A stretch of DNA of 33,427 nucleotides from IMG/VR virus record IMGVR_UViG_3300037508_000224, positions 1-33,427 of that record; one strand, 5' to 3'. This document shows positions 11,570-33,206 of the stretch, in pieces. This stretch comes from a virus. The notes below the pieces were generated by a model. That model was not told the DNA's origin. It saw nothing but the letters and a program-made list of their open reading frames with translations, and made no database searches. A program made the position numbers and the translations under genes. Within the stretch, counting starts at the first letter, position 1. Each line of letters begins with the position of its first letter.

Positions 11570-14062
11570 ATGAAGTTTTATACGAACATTGAACAGGCGG
11601 GGAATCGTATCCTCGTTCGTGGTTATGAAAATGGTGAGCGTGTTCAGTATCGTGTAAACTACAATCCCAAACTGTATGTGCTTAGCAATAAGCAAACAGA
11701 TCATAAGAGTCTGGATGGGCGCTTCCTCAAGGAAGTCTCTCCAGGCTCTATTAATGATTGTAGGCAATTTATCAATCAGTATGAAGGTGTTGAGGGATTT
11801 GAAATTCACGGAAATACTAGATACTTGTATCAGTACATAAACGAAGCATATCCCGATGATGAGATTCGTTTCGACTCTTCCCTCATTCGCACATTTACTT
11901 TGGATATTGAAACTGGAGCAGAAAACGGTTTCCCTGATATTGAATCGGCAGACCAAGAGATTCTACTCATTTCTATCCGTGATTCTTTTACAAATCGTAT
12001 CACTGTCTGGGGAAGCAAGAGTTTCCAGAATGAAGACAGACAGGTTGATTACATCCATTGTAACGATGAGACGAAACTCCTTTCGTGCTTCCTCAGATGG
12101 TGGCAGGAGAATACCCCCGACGTAATCACTGGTTGGAACGTTCAGCTATTCGATATGCCATACATCTGCCGACGTATGGATAGAGTGCTGGGTGAAGATC
12201 ACACCAAACTTCTATCGCCTTGGAAACTAATCTCATCGCGTGAGATTTTCATCAAGGGTCGCAAACAGATTGCGTATGATATTCCTGGCATCGCCACGTT
12301 GGATTACCTTGAACTTTATAAGAAGTTTACGTACACCAACCAAGAATCATATCGCCTAGACCATATCGCATCTGTGGAACTGGATGCCAAGAAACTTGAC
12401 CACTCTGAGTTTGATACTTTCAAAGAGTTTTACACTAAGGACTGGAATAAGTTCGTGCTGTATAACATCCACGACGTTCGCCTTGTTGATCATCTGGAAG
12501 ACAAGATGAAGTTGCTTGAATTGGCATTTACTATGGCATACGACGCCAAAGTAAACTACGAAGATGTTTATTCTCAGGTGCGTATGTGGGATAACATCAT
12601 CTTCATCTATCTGGCGAAGATGGGCGTTGTGATTCCTCCCAAGAAAGATAGTGTCAAGGATGCTAAGTATGCTGGTGCTTATGTGAAGGAACCTGTGCCT
12701 GGTATGTATGATTGGATTGTGAACTTCGACTTAAATTCACTGTATCCTCACTTGATCATGCAGTATAACCTGTCCCCAGAGACCCTCCTGCCGCGCCGCA
12801 GCAGCGTCAACGTGGATATGCTGCTGGATAAGGCATTTGATACCAGCGACCTCGTAGGGGAGACCCTGTGCGCCAATGGGACGCACTACACCACCAAGTT
12901 TCAGGGGTTCCTGCCCAAGCTGATGGAGAAGATCTACGAAGACCGAACCATCTACAAAAAGAAGATGCTTGCTGCCAAACAGCAATACGAAAAGACTCCA
13001 ACGATTGAGTTGAAGAAAGAGATTGCCCGCTGTAATAACATTCAGATGGCACGTAAGATCCAACTCAACTCTGCTTATGGTGCTATCGGTAACGAGCACT
13101 TCCGTTATTATAAACTTGAAATCGCTGAGGCAATCACTCTTTCTGGTCAGTTATCTATTCGCTGGATTGAGAGAAAGATGAATGCTTATCTTAACAAAGT
13201 TCTAAAGACACAGGATGTTGATTATGTTATTGCTTCTGATACTGACTCTATGTATCTTAACCTTGGTCCTCTGGTTGAACGTGTATACGGAGTACGAGAG
13301 AAAACTCCTGAAAGCATTGTTACGTTCCTTGATAAGGTCGCTTCACTGGAACTTGAGCAATATATTGAAAGTTCTTACCAAGAACTGGCCGACTATCTCA
13401 AAGCATACGACCAGAAAATGAAGATGAAACGCGAGAACATTGCTGAGCGTGGTTTCTGGACCGCCAAGAAACGCTATGTTCTCAACGTATGGGATAGTGA
13501 AGGTGTGCGTTATGCCAAACCGAAGATGAAAATCTGTGGTATGGAAACAGCACGTTCTTCTACGCCAGCTTACTACCGCGACAAACTGGAACAGGCGTAT
13601 CGTATCATTGTAACCAAAACTAACGATGATGTTCTTGATTTCATTAACGAGATCAAGGAAGACACCAAGAAACAGAACTATCTTAACATTGCTTTCCCTC
13701 GCGGTTGTAATGGTCTGAAGAAGTATCGCAGTGCTGCTGACATTTATGCTAAAGGCACTCCTATTCAAGTAAGAGGAGCATTACTCTACAACTATTACGT
13801 TCGTAAAAACAATTTGGAACACAAGTATCCACTTATTCAAGAAGGTGAAAAGATCAAGTTCATCTATCTGAAGACACCAAATCCTATCCGCGAGAATGTC
13901 ATTTCTTTCTTTCAACAACTGCCGAAGGAACTGAACCTTGACAAATACATTGACTACACGCTACAATTTGAGAAGAGTTTCTTTGAACCGCTGAAGAACG
14001 TGCTAGAATGTATCGGATGGCAAGCGGAACGTAAAGGCAATTTAACTAGTTTTTTCTTTTGA
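11570..14062 (+). CDS. 43: DNA polymerase gp43 (family B)
   Basis: The replicative polymerase has 830 residues (T4 gp43 has 898). The 3'-5' exonuclease motif DIE is at D112/E114. Polymerase motif A DLNSLYP is at 387-393, motif B QLNSAYGAIGN follows, motif C DTDS is at 557-560, and a KKRY motif comes later. The C terminus LTSFFF is a short hydrophobic tail of the kind that binds the gp45 clamp. A patch near 12780-12950 is much richer in G+C than the rest of the gene. UvsX and gp41 follow, completing the replisome. Confidence 0.97.
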   Translation: MKFYTNIEQAGNRILVRGYENGERVQYRVNYNPKLYVLSNKQTDHKSLDGRFLKEVSPGSINDCRQFINQYEGVEGFEIHGNTRYLYQYINEAYPDDEIRFDSSLIRTFTLDIETGAENGFPDIESADQEILLISIRDSFTNRITVWGSKSFQNEDRQVDYIHCNDETKLLSCFLRWWQENTPDVITGWNVQLFDMPYICRRMDRVLGEDHTKLLSPWKLISSREIFIKGRKQIAYDIPGIATLDYLELYKKFTYTNQESYRLDHIASVELDAKKLDHSEFDTFKEFYTKDWNKFVLYNIHDVRLVDHLEDKMKLLELAFTMAYDAKVNYEDVYSQVRMWDNIIFIYLAKMGVVIPPKKDSVKDAKYAGAYVKEPVPGMYDWIVNFDLNSLYPHLIMQYNLSPETLLPRRSSVNVDMLLDKAFDTSDLVGETLCANGTHYTTKFQGFLPKLMEKIYEDRTIYKKKMLAAKQQYEKTPTIELKKEIARCNNIQMARKIQLNSAYGAIGNEHFRYYKLEIAEAITLSGQLSIRWIERKMNAYLNKVLKTQDVDYVIASDTDSMYLNLGPLVERVYGVREKTPESIVTFLDKVASLELEQYIESSYQELADYLKAYDQKMKMKRENIAERGFWTAKKRYVLNVWDSEGVRYAKPKMKICGMETARSSTPAYYRDKLEQAYRIIVTKTNDDVLDFINEIKEDTKKQNYLNIAFPRGCNGLKKYRSAADIYAKGTPIQVRGALLYNYYVRKNNLEHKYPLIQEGEKIKFIYLKTPNPIRENVISFFQQLPKELNLDKYIDYTLQFEKSFFEPLKNVLECIGWQAERKGNLTSFFF

Positions 14063-19961: not shown

Positions 19962-20245
19962 AATCACTTAAAGAACTATTAGCACAATCGAAACAAAAAT
20001 CTTACATGCTCGGTAATGTATTTGCTGAGGGTGATTGGGTTCAAAATTCTAATGGTGAAGCAGGAAGAATTCATCGCCGTGGAGTTAATTATGTTATTGC
20101 TGTTACTAATGAAGGTAAGATGTTTCGCGCTTGGGTGAAAGATATTAAAGAACATTGTGGATGTGATGAAAAAGAGATGAGTGCTAAGGATAAGGTCAAG
20201 TCATTTATAAATAAAAATAAACGACAAAAGACCAATGACAATTGA
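19958..20245 (+). CDS. Small basic protein of unknown function
   Basis: The product has 95 residues. A central segment GDWVQNSNGEAGRIHRRG followed by VIAVTNEGKMFRAWVKD looks like a small beta-barrel of the SH3/KOW kind. The tail is Lys-rich with a CGC pair. The start overlaps the preceding stop (ATGA), and the end overlaps the next ORF by 11 bases. Tight packing supports translation. No specific function was recognised. Confidence 0.7.
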   Translation: MKSLKELLAQSKQKSYMLGNVFAEGDWVQNSNGEAGRIHRRGVNYVIAVTNEGKMFRAWVKDIKEHCGCDEKEMSAKDKVKSFINKNKRQKTNDN

Positions 20246-20855
20246 TGAGTTTTCAAAAAGTCTAATTGAAAGGGCAATTGCCGAATTAGATGAAGCAAAA
20301 AACAAAGAAGGCAAGGAACAAGGTGCTGACGGCAAAGCTTGTTGGAAAGGTTATAAGTATGCTGGCACTGAGAATGGTAAAGATAAGTGCGTGAAGGCAG
20401 GGTATGAAATGGATGGGGGCGAAGAACTATCCGAAAGAAAAGATATGCCTGGCAATCAAGAAAAGATTGATGCCAACAAGAATGGTAAAGTAGATGCTCA
20501 TGACTTTGCTCTTCTTCGCGCAAAGAAAGCTAAGAAATCAGTAAAAGAAATGTGGGAGAAGGCAGCAGAAATTGCTGAGGGAAAGAAAGTTGAGATTGAA
20601 GTAATGCCAGATGTTGATATTCCCAATGATCCAGAAAAAGAAACTGGTAAGAAAGCAAAGAAAGAAAAAGAACTAAAGAAAGAAGAAGTGGAAATTCTTG
20701 ACGAGAAAAAACTTTCTAAGGCAGAAGCAGCAAAGAAAGAAAAATTTGTTAAAGGTATGAAGAAGAAGTTTGGTTCCTTCAAGACAAAGTATGGCGACAG
20801 AGCAAAAGAAGTGATGTATGGAACTGCTACCACAATGGCAAAAAAATCAGCCTAA
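20235..20855 (+). CDS. Lys/Glu-rich protein with an EF-hand-type loop
   Basis: The product has 206 residues. A stretch around residues 36-52 has paired cysteines (ACWKGYKYAG...KCVKA). Residues 79-90 form a canonical 12-residue EF-hand/dockerin calcium loop with Asp79, Asn81, Asn83, Gly84, Val86, Asp87 and Asp90. The C-terminal half is very rich in Lys and Glu and is probably helical or disordered. Similar loops occur in marine phage proteins of unknown role. It overlaps the preceding ORF by 11 bases and ends at a late promoter. Confidence 0.75.
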   Translation: MTIDEFSKSLIERAIAELDEAKNKEGKEQGADGKACWKGYKYAGTENGKDKCVKAGYEMDGGEELSERKDMPGNQEKIDANKNGKVDAHDFALLRAKKAKKSVKEMWEKAAEIAEGKKVEIEVMPDVDIPNDPEKETGKKAKKEKELKKEEVEILDEKKLSKAEAAKKEKFVKGMKKKFGSFKTKYGDRAKEVMYGTATTMAKKSA

Positions 20856-28279: not shown

Positions 28280-28413
28280 GAAAGAAAAAAATAGAAAAGA
28301 TTCAAAAGAAACTCAGGGAGCAGGAACAAAATATAGAGAATTTAAATCATCAACAAAGGTGGATACTAAAGATTCTAATGGAAAAATTCCAGATCCCTGG
28401 TTCAACTGAATAG
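28276..28413 (+). CDS. Tiny basic/coiled-coil ORF after nrdB
   Basis: A GTG start overlapping the nrdB stop (GTGA) opens a 45-residue frame beginning VRKKKIEKIQKKLREQEQ and ending in an amphipathic stretch. Most of the same interval is also open in another frame ending NGKIPDPWFN with a TGA at 28409, so which is translated is not certain. Only the spacing and helix-like composition support this choice. No function is assigned. Confidence 0.4.
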   Translation: MRKKKIEKIQKKLREQEQNIENLNHQQRWILKILMEKFQIPGSTE

Positions 28414-28420
28414 ATAAATA
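28414..28420 (+). promoter_or_regulatory. Late promoter (ATAAATA) before the nuclease-like gene
   Basis: ATAAATA lies right before the 5' arm of a hairpin. The start is expected near 28426, just after that arm. Confidence 0.6.
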
Positions 28421-28441
28421 CCTCCATCTTGGAGGTTTTTT
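28421..28441 (+). terminator. Terminator hairpin containing the next ribosome site
   Basis: CCTCC (28421-28425), loop ATCTT, GGAGG (28431-28435), then six T. GGAGG is also the ribosome site 9 bases before the ATG at 28445. Confidence 0.75.
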
Positions 28442-28444
28442 ATT

Positions 28445-28792
28445 ATGCGCCCACAATCAGCAAAAGCAAAAGGTCGCCGTCTGCAACAATGGGTGAGAGA
28501 TAAACTGGTAGAGTGTCTCAATATTCATCCAGAAGATATTGAATCACGCTCTATGGGGGCAGGTGGTGAAGACCTTATCATGGCTCGTGCTGCTAGATTA
28601 AAGTTTCCTCATAGCATTGAATGTAAGAATGTAGAGAAGCTAAATATCTGGGATGCTTACGAGCAAGCATCTGCCAACTGTGGTGACTATGAGCCTATTG
28701 TTGTCATGAAAAAGAATGGCAAAAAACCACTGGTCGTAGTAGACGCAGAGTATTACATTCAACTATTCGGAGACAAAGATGGCAAAGATTGA
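28445..28792 (+). CDS. Putative PD-(D/E)XK endonuclease
   Basis: The product has 115 residues. Asp43 in GEDLIMA is followed by Glu59 and Lys61 in IECK, the D...ExK active-site arrangement of the PD-(D/E)XK nuclease fold, with basic N-terminal residues and a helix WDAYEQA after the motif. Small proteins of this kind in phages include Holliday-junction-type and VRR-like nucleases. GGAGG lies 9 bases before the start. It overlaps the peptidase gene by 14 bases. The DNA structure it cuts is unknown; a recombination or packaging role fits. Confidence 0.78.
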   Translation: MRPQSAKAKGRRLQQWVRDKLVECLNIHPEDIESRSMGAGGEDLIMARAARLKFPHSIECKNVEKLNIWDAYEQASANCGDYEPIVVMKKNGKKPLVVVDAEYYIQLFGDKDGKD

Positions 28793-29480
28793 TTTACACA
28801 ACTTTTTTAAACATTACGACGAAAAGAATCCAAAGCATGTAGAAGCTGTTGGATATTTTGAAGATGCTCTCAATAAAAAAACACCAGAAGAAATGGAAGA
28901 TTCTTCTGGGTGGGTTAAAACATTTAGAGCACAACCAGAAAAACCAAAATCAAATATACTTGACGTGCCTTTCTTTCCACAGACAGATAACTACAGAGAT
29001 GCTAATCGCACTTGTAACTCATCTGCCTGTGCTATGGTGTTAGAATATTTTAAGCCAGGCACACTCAAGGGAGCGAAAGGCGACGATGCTTACGTTCAAA
29101 AAGTTTTCTCAATCGGTGACACAACTGACCATGTGGTTCAAACCAAAGTTTTGGCATCTTATGGTATTAAGTCACACTTTAGTTATGGTCTATCTTTTAA
29201 TGACCTTGACCGTGAGCTTGCTGCTGGGAGACCCGTGGTTGCTGGCATTCTCCATCGCGGCCCTCTATCTGCTCCTACTGGGGGGCACATGGTTGTAATC
29301 ATCGGCAAGACCCCTACAGGTGATTATGTTGTTAACGACCCTTACGGCAGTCTTAACGACGGTTATACGGGCGCTGTAACCAACGGTAAGGGCGCCGTAT
29401 ATAAGAAGACAGATCTCATGCGTCGCTGGTGCCCCAATCGCAATGATGGATGGGGGAGAATCTTTGACGTAAAAAAGTAG
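28779..29480 (+). CDS. C39-like cysteine peptidase
   Basis: The product has 233 residues. After a 60-residue polar N-terminal part, the papain-like C39 pattern appears: DVPFFPQTDNYRDANRTCN with catalytic Cys79, GGHMVVIIG with His170, and VNDPYG with Asp187. Such domains cut peptides, including peptidoglycan cross-links in some phage and bacterial proteins. The frame ends GTA AAA AAG TAG; the A AAA AAG heptamer plus a downstream stem allows a -1 frameshift into the lysozyme frame, giving a fused 397-residue protein. It overlaps the nuclease gene by 14 bases. Confidence 0.85.
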   Translation: MAKIDLHNFFKHYDEKNPKHVEAVGYFEDALNKKTPEEMEDSSGWVKTFRAQPEKPKSNILDVPFFPQTDNYRDANRTCNSSACAMVLEYFKPGTLKGAKGDDAYVQKVFSIGDTTDHVVQTKVLASYGIKSHFSYGLSFNDLDRELAAGRPVVAGILHRGPLSAPTGGHMVVIIGKTPTGDYVVNDPYGSLNDGYTGAVTNGKGAVYKKTDLMRRWCPNRNDGWGRIFDVKK

Positions 29481-29535
29481 ACAACTCTACTCCTTCAGCG
29501 AGCAAATATGATGTGCCTGTGGAGGGAGTAGAGTT
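29471..29535 (+). other. Predicted -1 programmed ribosomal frameshift signal
   Basis: The slippery heptamer A AAA AAG is at 29471-29477, in phase with the peptidase frame and directly before its TAG. After a 5-base spacer, AACTCTACTCC (29483-29493) pairs perfectly with GGAGTAGAGTT (29525-29535). Three more pairs (T-G, T-A, C-G) extend the stem to 14 bp around a 25-base loop. Slipping back one base continues GTA GAC AAC into an open frame that reaches the lysozyme without a stop. The design matches known -1 sites such as dnaX. Confidence 0.7.
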
Positions 29536-29971
29536 AATCAAAGAGTTTGAAGGTTGTAAACTGACAGCATACCCAGATCCACATACAGGTAGTTTGCCCA
29601 TCACTATTGGTTGGGGAAGCACCAGAGATTTCAACGGCAAACCATTTAAACTTGGTGATAAGATTTCGCAGAAGGTTGCTGATGATCTCTTGATGAATCA
29701 GATTAAGAAGGAGTTTATTCCTGCCCTATCTAAAATACCTTATTGGAGTGAAATGAATGATAACCAACGCGGAGCACTTTTATCCTTTGCTTATAATCTC
29801 GGTGCTGGGTTTTACGGTGCATATAATTTCAGTACTATCTCTCGCCATCTACGTGAGAAGAATTGGGGACTCATCCCAAAAACATTAGAGATGTATCGTA
29901 ATCCTGGTAGCAAAGTTGAAGCAGGATTACTCAGAAGAAGAAAAGCAGAAGGTAAACTCTGGGTTTCTTAA
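29513..29971 (+). CDS. GH24-family lysozyme (endolysin domain)
   Basis: The product is 152 residues if started at the GTG at 29513. The T4-lysozyme-type triad is present: Glu13 in KEFEG, Asp22 in YPDP and Thr31 in ITIGWG. It cleaves the glycan strands of peptidoglycan. Neither GTG (29513 or 29519) has a good ribosome site, and both lie in the loop or stem of the frameshift hairpin. The frame is open back to 29468 with a linker VDNSTPSASKYD. I think it is mainly made as the C-terminal part of a peptidase-lysozyme fusion. The stop overlaps the end of a minus-strand gene. Confidence 0.9.
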   Translation: MPVEGVELIKEFEGCKLTAYPDPHTGSLPITIGWGSTRDFNGKPFKLGDKISQKVADDLLMNQIKKEFIPALSKIPYWSEMNDNQRGALLSFAYNLGAGFYGAYNFSTISRHLREKNWGLIPKTLEMYRNPGSKVEAGLLRRRKAEGKLWVS

Positions 29972-31403: not shown

Positions 31404-31415
31404 AATCCTACACAC

Positions 31416-31487
31416 GGGCTCATAGTTAAGCGGATATAACTACCGCCTTCTAAGCGGTCGTCCCTGGTTCGATTCCAGGTGAGCCTG
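31416..31487 (+). tRNA. tRNA-Arg (anticodon UCU)
   Basis: The acceptor arm GGGCTCA pairs with TGAGCCT (one G-U). The anticodon stem ACCGC/GCGGT holds the loop CTTCTAA with TCT at 31449-31451, and the T arm is CCTGG-TTCGATT-CCAGG. No CCA is encoded. It reads AGA/AGG codons, which are frequent in the AT-rich phage genes here. Confidence 0.93.
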
Positions 31488-31494
31488 TTTCCCG

Positions 31495-31527: not shown

Positions 31528-31836
31528 ATGGGAAAACCTTATAAACTGATGACCGAAGATGAGAAATCATCTTTCAATCAGTATTGTATTCAAAGATGGC
31601 AACAACGCAAACTTGATGCTGTAGAATACAAAGGTGGAAAGTGCGAACGTTGTGGGTATGATAAATACTCAGAGGTTTTAGAGTTCCACCATCTCGACCC
31701 TACACAAAAAGAAGCAGCTTGGAATAAGATGCGTCTTTGGAGTTGGGAAAAGATAATGACAGAACTAGACAAATGTGCTATACTTTGTGCTAACTGTCAT
31801 CGTGAAGTTCACGTAGAACTTAGGCAGGGCGATTAG
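31528..31836 (+). CDS. HNH endonuclease between two tRNA genes
   Basis: The product has 102 residues. It has a zinc pair CERCG near 39-43, the HNH core LEFHHLDP near 51-58 and the CANCHREVH end near 87-95. Four Cys form a structural zinc site and HH...H the catalytic part. It is probably a free-standing homing-type or nicking enzyme, common beside phage tRNA clusters. The last three codons and stop lie in the first 10 bases of tRNA-Val, so the two genes overlap. Confidence 0.85.
   Translation: MGKPYKLMTEDEKSSFNQYCIQRWQQRKLDAVEYKGGKCERCGYDKYSEVLEFHHLDPTQKEAAWNKMRLWSWEKIMTELDKCAILCANCHREVHVELRQGD
31756..31784 (+). promoter_or_regulatory. Possible promoter for tRNA-Val inside the HNH gene
   Basis: ATGACA (31756-31761), 17 bases, TATACT (31779-31784). 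The start would be about 35 bases before the tRNA. Weak evidence within coding sequence. Confidence 0.3.
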
Positions 31837-31898
31837 CTCAGCGGTAGAGCTCTTGCCTTACAAGCAAGCTGTCACTGGTTCGATTCCAGTATCGCCCA
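31827..31898 (+). tRNA. tRNA-Val (anticodon UAC)
   Basis: The acceptor arm GGGCGAT pairs perfectly with ATCGCCC. The anticodon stem CTTGC/GCAAG holds the loop CTTACAA with anticodon TAC, and the T arm is ACTGG-TTCGATT-CCAGT. The first 10 bases overlap the end of the HNH gene. Confidence 0.94.
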
Positions 31899-33071: not shown

Positions 33072-33073
33072 TT

Positions 33074-33162
33074 GGAAGTGTGGCTGAGAGGTCTAAAGCA
33101 GCGGTTTGCTAAACCGCCGATGTCTTTATGGGCATCCGTTGGTTCGAATCCAACCACTTCCG
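33074..33162 (+). tRNA. tRNA-Ser (anticodon GCU)
   Basis: The acceptor arm GGAAGTG pairs with CACTTCC. The anticodon stem GCGGT/ACCGC holds the loop TTGCTAA with anticodon GCT. A long variable arm, GATGTC/GGCATC, is the type expected for tRNA-Ser, and the T arm is GTTGG-TTCGAAT-CCAAC. No CCA is encoded. It reads AGC/AGU codons. Confidence 0.92.
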
Positions 33163-33206
33163 TTGCCCATTACGGGCATGACATGTCGTTTAAACATTAA
33201 GAAACT

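Follow-up and report, generated by a model that had tools for sequence, protein, structure and literature searches.

Comparative evidence for a -1 ribosomal frameshift joining a C39-like peptidase to a GH24 lysozyme in T4-like cyanophages

How is a lysozyme translated when it lies in the -1 frame behind the stop codon of a peptidase gene? The question is raised by IMGVR_UViG_3300037508_000224, a 33.4-kb virus record of a T4-like cyanophage that is kin of Synechococcus phage S-PM2. "The window" here means the whole analysed stretch of 33,427 nucleotides, and the features from 28413 to 29971 are on the plus strand. Behind nrdA and nrdB lie three coding regions: one RusA-like, one for a C39 peptidase and, in the -1 frame, one for a GH24 lysozyme. 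S-PM2 matches the RusA-peptidase-lysozyme stretch from end to end with 76% DNA identity. The RusA-like Holliday junction resolvase gene (28445-28792; phrog_244, E 4.2e-22) shares its last 14 nt with the beginning of the peptidase gene. Just 5' of the RusA-like gene, within 28413-28440, an ATAAATA motif (28414-28420) resembling a T4-type late promoter merges directly into a terminator-like hairpin, ACCTCCATCTTGGAGGTTTTTT (28420-28436). This might be the start of a lysis transcript, but the evidence is weak because the motif occurs 11 times in the window, which is not above chance (7.3 expected). Three tRNA genes lie 3' of the lysis genes, namely Arg-TCT (31415-31488), Val-TAC (31827-31898) and Ser-GCT (33073-33163).

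The 0-frame product (28779-29480, 233 aa) consists of an N-terminal cyanophage-lysin module and a C39-like cysteine peptidase. It matches the Peptidase_C39_2 profile (PF13529) with E = 1.7e-14, and it also matches phrog_10051, 'endolysin'. Four residues, Q68, C79, H170 and D187, are invariant among 34 homologues, and we take them to be the catalytic residues of the peptidase, an assignment of our own. A structure model of the 0-frame protein (pLDDT 80) matches papain-like enzymes, including the C39 peptidase domains of PCAT1 and 3erv, with the pseudomurein endoisopeptidase PeiR further down the list. By its profile match, its conserved Cys, His and Asp and its papain-like fold, the product meets the criteria for a C39-like cysteine peptidase; its activity and substrate are inferred. 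The N-terminal module is confined to Synechococcus phages among 50,697 phage records, and most proteins bearing it are named endolysin, lysozyme or peptidase, or are unnamed. The most likely role that can be inferred is that the module serves cyanophage lysins for targeting or docking, and frameshifting would then tether the lysozyme to it. The module (DLHNFFKFYD...) also fronts a separate GH24 lysozyme gene in DSL-LC02 (L006 2258-2929) and DSL-LC03 (L007 2083-2751).

The -1 frame ORF (29477-29971) has 164 codons plus a stop codon, without any internal stop, and encodes the linker VDNSTPSASKYDVPVEG followed by the GH24 lysozyme. Its match to the Phage_lysozyme profile (PF00959; E = 2.8e-24) covers positions 1-125 of 125, and a comparison with the PDB gives GH24 lysozymes and endolysins with E values down to 4.6e-14. 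In 25 usable pairs against the window, the lysozyme dN/dS is 0.09-0.27 with a median of 0.17, and the length is nearly constant, so the -1 frame ORF is under purifying selection. Joined to the peptidase, it would give a fusion of 233 + 164 = 397 residues.

What could carry ribosomes from one frame to the other? The peptidase ORF ends with GTA AAA AAG TAG (29469-29480), which puts the slippery heptamer A AAA AAG (29471-29477), read from the sequence and kept in homologues, in the 0-frame phase. The adjoining stop codon TAG (29478-29480) opens a 5-nt spacer (29478-29482), which is followed by a stem supported by both folding and covariation. Its 5' arm is AACTCTACTCCTTC (29483-29496), and its 3' arm (29522-29535) runs into the first lysozyme codons. 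The stem has 11 perfect base pairs (29483-29493 with 29525-29535); it reaches 14 bp (29483-29496 with 29522-29535) around a loop of 25 nt when three more pairs, including a G-U, are counted. The minimum free energy of 29480-29545 is -27.4 kcal/mol (z = -5.16), and none of 200 shuffles folds as well. No other in-phase A AAA AAG occurs over the 9,593 codons of the 32 window genes. The lysozyme's only ATG, GTG or TTG codons in the -1 frame are the two GTGs at 29513 and 29519 (29513-29521); both are inside the hairpin loop, and no Shine-Dalgarno sequence is visible by eye 5' of either in the window.

In bacterial-type -1 frameshifting, a stimulatory RNA structure lies about 5-8 nt downstream (PMC4066793). 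Three sequence criteria for such a site are fulfilled here: an in-phase X XXY YYZ heptamer, a downstream structure and a conserved -1 frame ORF that depends on the shift. Note that the last criterion is met across homologues, and within the window alone the two GTGs remain possible starts. The sequence-only reading had described the in-phase heptamer, the spacer, the stem and loop as in the dnaX design, the open -1 frame with a Ser/Thr/Pro linker and the GTGs without a ribosome site inside the structure, and each of these points held. A GGGGGAG ends 12 nt upstream of the heptamer, but it cannot be used as evidence for a Shine-Dalgarno-like stimulator because it is forced by a conserved GWGR protein motif, which is also present in relatives without the frameshift. 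A search of Rfam at the junction returned no family. Two other heptamers near gene ends in the window, T TTT TTC in the DNA polymerase gene (11570-14062) and A AAA AAA in the gene at 20235-20855, were rejected as recoding sites, with no long -1 frame ORF behind them.

Is the signal kept in other phages? Homologues came from a search with the peptidase (80 IMG/VR loci), from another query that added 80, and from a DNA pattern that added further ones. The same layout of heptamer, stem and -1 frame lysozyme is found in about 90 distinct cyanophage junctions, S-PM2 included, where the junction reads GCA AAA AAG TAA and one A-U stem pair of the window is G-C. An independent contig, IMGVR_UViG_3300042288_000581, has a junction identical to that of the window, and therefore the run of six A's is no assembly slip of one contig. 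Among 112 distinct junctions whose lysozyme is in the -1 frame, 100 have an in-phase A AAA AAG. Of the 92 core junctions, 85 have the 0-frame stop directly behind the heptamer; in the other seven it comes one codon later. To the comparison across cyanophages proposed in the sequence-only reading, the answer is favourable. With a pattern that allowed every synonymous codon and demanded roughly only the tail GWGR-x-F-[D/E]-[V/A]-K-K-stop, all 84 distinct 100-mers were found to use A AAA AAG. From the codon use of the same genes, this choice of three codons has an expected frequency of about 7-9% per gene. Between the window and many of its relatives, synonymous sites are close to saturated. Shared ancestry alone is therefore inadequate to explain the invariance of the heptamer. 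One caveat is that the junctions are related sequences and not independent trials.

The stem gives a further line of evidence. A stem of 8 bp or more starts 2-8 nt past the heptamer in every one of the 88 unique core junctions. Three main stem families are seen, CTCTACTCC/GGAGTAGAG, CAACACCAC/GTGGTGTTG and GCCAACTAA/TTAGTTGGC, together with singletons such as CCCCGTCACT/AGTAGCGGGG. Compared with synonymous recoding of the -1 frame, the median z of the folding energy is -2.4, and z is below -2 in 61 of the 88. In the family of the window (26 sequences), 91% of cells pair, against 36-50% for slid partners, and double changes occur in six pairs (21 cells), a number that 0 of 500 shuffles reach. 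In the second family (35 sequences), the corresponding values are 92.9% and 30-49%, with double changes in six pairs (15 cells), again reached by 0 of 500 shuffles for cells changed. For the compensatory double changes of both families, no shuffle of the 500 matched either the cells changed or the covariation score. These alignments joined the two arms and omitted the loop, with each sequence set in register by its best stem; the percentages paired therefore lean towards structure, and in our weighting the double changes count for more. The stem thus covaries in two separately aligned families.

Could the lysozyme be started on its own? In 61 of the 92 core junctions, the -1 frame contains no ATG, GTG or TTG before the lysozyme core, and 71 of the 92 have no ATG or GTG. 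The ORF is nonetheless under purifying selection, and only a change of frame can yield the lysozyme in such genomes, barring a rare start codon. In GenBank the lysins of two reference genomes are entered as short ORFs (L002 2800-3018 in S-PM2; L277 2499-2717 and L305 1581-1853 in S-CAM7). The annotated lysins of S-PM2 and S-CAM7, of 73-91 aa, begin at an internal start codon and miss the catalytic N-terminal part. By comparison, and without protein data, we infer that the coding region of these lysins really begins at the frameshift site.

Relatives in which the two domains are wired differently serve as natural controls. Of the 12 junctions lacking A AAA AAG, 11 carry a lysozyme start of their own, an ATG or GTG that overlaps the stop of the peptidase gene, and need no shift. 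ATGA- or GTGA-coupled starts are found in S-SRM01, L025, L049, L126 and others. The heptamer is decaying in L146 and L155; S-SRM01 and L025 keep it with virtually no stem. The comparison shows that the signal is mostly lost in relatives with an overlapping lysozyme start. The twelfth junction belongs to the S-CAM7 clade, the only start-less relative without A AAA AAG. It reads GTT TTT TTT CCA CAG TAG, that is, a U UUU UUU heptamer followed by the 5-nt spacer CCACA and a stem of 13 bp (z -4.1). This signal is identical in three isolates, and is retained with G-U changes in an 87%-identical contig. A peptidase tree places the S-CAM7 clade within a group of in-frame fusions (97-100% SH-aLRT), and a fully supported branch separates it from the A AAA AAG family. 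This nesting indicates that the U UUU UUU signal arose separately. The sequence-only reading had held that homologues without the heptamer and stem would refute it; for the start-less layout none was met, and S-CAM7 is an exception that swaps in another heptamer.

In-frame fusions form another group. Seven A's in L107-L110 and in L111 join both frames directly, with the stem retained. The L107-L110 haplotypes share the seven A's and differ elsewhere, and their close relative L226 has six. The peptidase tree shows these as two lineages within the A AAA AAG family, and their support is starred. They fuse the domains without shifting, and frameshifting is therefore not essential to every member. 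A different length of the A run had also been named as grounds for refutation, and it is found only in this minority; the window, the contig with the identical junction and the remaining ~90 junctions do not have it. In the in-frame fusions L112 and the ACG-2014f-like L008, L090 and L092, the junction is A AAA AAG TCT GA, so that a -1 shift would stop at once, a dnaX-type polarity that is the reverse of the window's. With its seven A's, the junction of L107-L110 and L111 includes A AAA AAA, where a -1 shift would run for about a dozen codons before ending. A strong stem is kept in L112, L107 and L111 (z -3.1 to -4.3), whereas the ACG-2014f hairpin is weak (z -1.8, with 5.7% of shuffles as good), and the dnaX-type polarity in ACG-2014f is possibly real, a lead rather than a result. 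The pattern may hint that two products persist whichever frame is the default, though the lineages are few and part of the pattern may be recent inheritance. The reverse domain order, GH24, module and C39 in one ORF, is seen in S-CREM1 (L005 1474-2655), and in L069 and L077 a lysozyme-like core motif lies about 1.1 kb upstream of the C39 tail. For the in-frame fusion L089, a single-sequence structure prediction reached a pLDDT of only 32. The existence of in-frame fusions of the same domains makes the fused protein plausible as an enzyme. Taken together, peptidase and lysozyme can be wired by frameshift, by fusion, by a coupled start or as separate genes (as in DSL-LC02 and DSL-LC03), and the lineages switch between these arrangements. 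We do not claim a number of switches because the deep branches of the peptidase tree are poorly resolved.

The scenario is then as follows. Ribosomes on the peptidase gene would reach A AAA AAG with the hairpin 5 nt downstream. The majority would halt at the adjacent TAG and release the 233-aa protein of N-terminal module and C39 peptidase. A fraction would re-pair one base back, enter the -1 frame and continue through the short Ser/Thr/Pro linker into the GH24 lysozyme, giving a two-domain enzyme of 397 aa. In most of the family this slip would be the only evident route to the lysozyme. The signal, its conservation, the stem covariation, the absence of alternative starts in most homologues and the purifying selection are established. 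We consider it very likely that -1 programmed ribosomal frameshifting joins the peptidase to the lysozyme, on comparative evidence and without protein or reporter data. Thus the fusion claimed by the sequence-only reading is supported by sequence comparison, and the product itself is unproven.

Several other explanations should be weighed. Readthrough of the stop codon was rejected: the 0 frame past TAG gives TTLLLQRANMMCLWRE and then a stop, and encodes no lysozyme. Under termination-reinitiation, ribosomes would stop at TAG and restart at the -1 frame GTG at 29513 or 29519, making a free lysozyme, with the stem shaping the coupling. GTGs are indeed present in the window and some relatives, and coupled starts are real in other relatives. 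However, this explanation fails for the majority of core junctions, which offer no start in the -1 frame, and it explains neither the invariance of A AAA AAG at the synonymous level nor the loss of heptamer or stem in coupled relatives. We regard it as very unlikely. Transcriptional slippage seems even less probable. Here RNA polymerase would insert one more A at A6 (for S-CAM7, one more T at T8), and some of the mRNAs would encode the fusion in frame. Homopolymer runs are present, S-CAM7 has eight T's and seven-A DNA lineages exist. On the other hand, A6 is short for transcriptional slippage, the run stays A6-G in codon phase, L028 (GAA-AAA-AAG) being the only case in the -1 class with a longer one, and a covarying stem 5 nt downstream would not be expected.

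It might also be supposed that the junction is an artefact, either because the A run was missequenced or misassembled or because a fusion gene is decaying after a frameshift. One extra A does join the frames in the seven-A lineages. However, the second, independent contig with an identical junction, the finished records of S-PM2 and ~90 distinct sequences all have the A6 junction, and the low dN/dS (about 0.17) and constant length of the -1 frame ORF do not fit decay, so an artefact is all but excluded.

With frameshifting as the preferred reading, how much of it matters to the phage? The sequence-only reading had further proposed that frameshifting sets the ratio of peptidase alone to the two-headed enzyme; the mechanism is supported, and the ratio and its role are unproven. 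We infer that in the cyanobacterial host slippage is frequent enough to be useful and both products arise, and that lysis is affected by their ratio or covalent link. The slipperiness of A AAA AAG in Synechococcus depends on its tRNA-Lys set, which is undetermined for the host, and this counts as a reservation about the frameshift. The window itself yielded no tRNA-Lys in a tRNA gene search. A tRNA-Lys pattern search covered five cyanobacterial genomes, with a pattern that was too strict and only one genome known to be of Synechococcus type, an uncultured Thermosynechococcus. Three matches to a tRNA-Lys-like anticodon arm reading CUU were seen (L390, L391 and L392, in genomes G003 and G004). 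Some cyanobacteria may therefore have an AAG-reading tRNA, possibly lowering slippage on A AAA AAG. A bolder reading takes the ratio of peptidase-only to two-domain enzyme as a selected trait, a translational dosage device for lysis. In this bolder reading, the slippery site and hairpin would have evolved at least twice (A AAA AAG in S-PM2-like phages, U UUU UUU in the S-CAM7 clade), and several in-frame fusions would retain a heptamer whose -1 shift gives a short product, the default frame being interchangeable. We offer it tentatively, being slightly more inclined to doubt it than to accept it.

If the frameshift is true, a widespread cyanophage group controls its cell-wall enzymes by ribosomal frameshifting, and the short S-PM2 and S-CAM7 'lysin' ORFs without a catalytic start are accounted for. 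Cultivable phages would then be available to tie the frameshift rate to lysis. Moreover, two slippery sites, covarying stems, coupled starts, in-frame fusions and separate genes make an unusual evolutionary series for a recoding signal.

How does this locus compare with known systems? No report of a cyanophage lysin frameshift was found in the open-access literature searched; subscription papers were outside the search. The phage frameshift cases known to us are mainly in tail and capsid genes. The tail-assembly-chaperone genes of the lambda G/GT type and T7 gene 10A/10B are -1 frameshifted pairs with a short and an extended product (references in PMC5009743). They serve virion assembly or the capsid, whereas the cyanophage target is a lysis enzyme and its downstream domain, unlike theirs, is a complete enzyme. 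By target gene the closest precedent is a lactococcal lysin from a different phage group, cited as a frameshift case by PRFect (PMC10885494), for which we know of no comparative series. One lysis locus gives two products in CTP1L (PMC4777826), LysIME-EF1 (PMC7098653) and Ms6 LysA (PMC3111421). In these, however, an internal in-frame start makes an extra C-terminal part, while in the cyanophages the extra product is N-terminal and the frame changes. The internal-start criterion is not met here, with the lysozyme in another frame and mostly startless. The in-frame cyanophage fusions of ACG-2014f (405 aa) and S-CREM1 have a homologous peptidase, lysozyme and N-terminal module; unlike the window, each is a single ORF, and S-CREM1 has its domains reversed. 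The nearest likeness in design is E. coli dnaX (GCA AAA AAG plus a stem-loop), with the same heptamer, a stem-loop about 5 nt downstream and two products per start; even the preceding codon GCA is found in many cyanophage relatives. In some cases, dnaX among them, an upstream Shine-Dalgarno-like stimulator is also present; the GGGGGAG of the window, fixed by the protein motif, may or may not play such a part. What is known is thus standard -1 frameshifting with the dnaX heptamer. What appears to be new, with the lactococcal lysin as one possible precedent, is that the target is a lysis enzyme, that most members apparently cannot do without the shift and that another slippery site evolved separately. 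Shifting in dnaX gives the shorter of its two products; in the cyanophages the shift would instead add a second catalytic domain.
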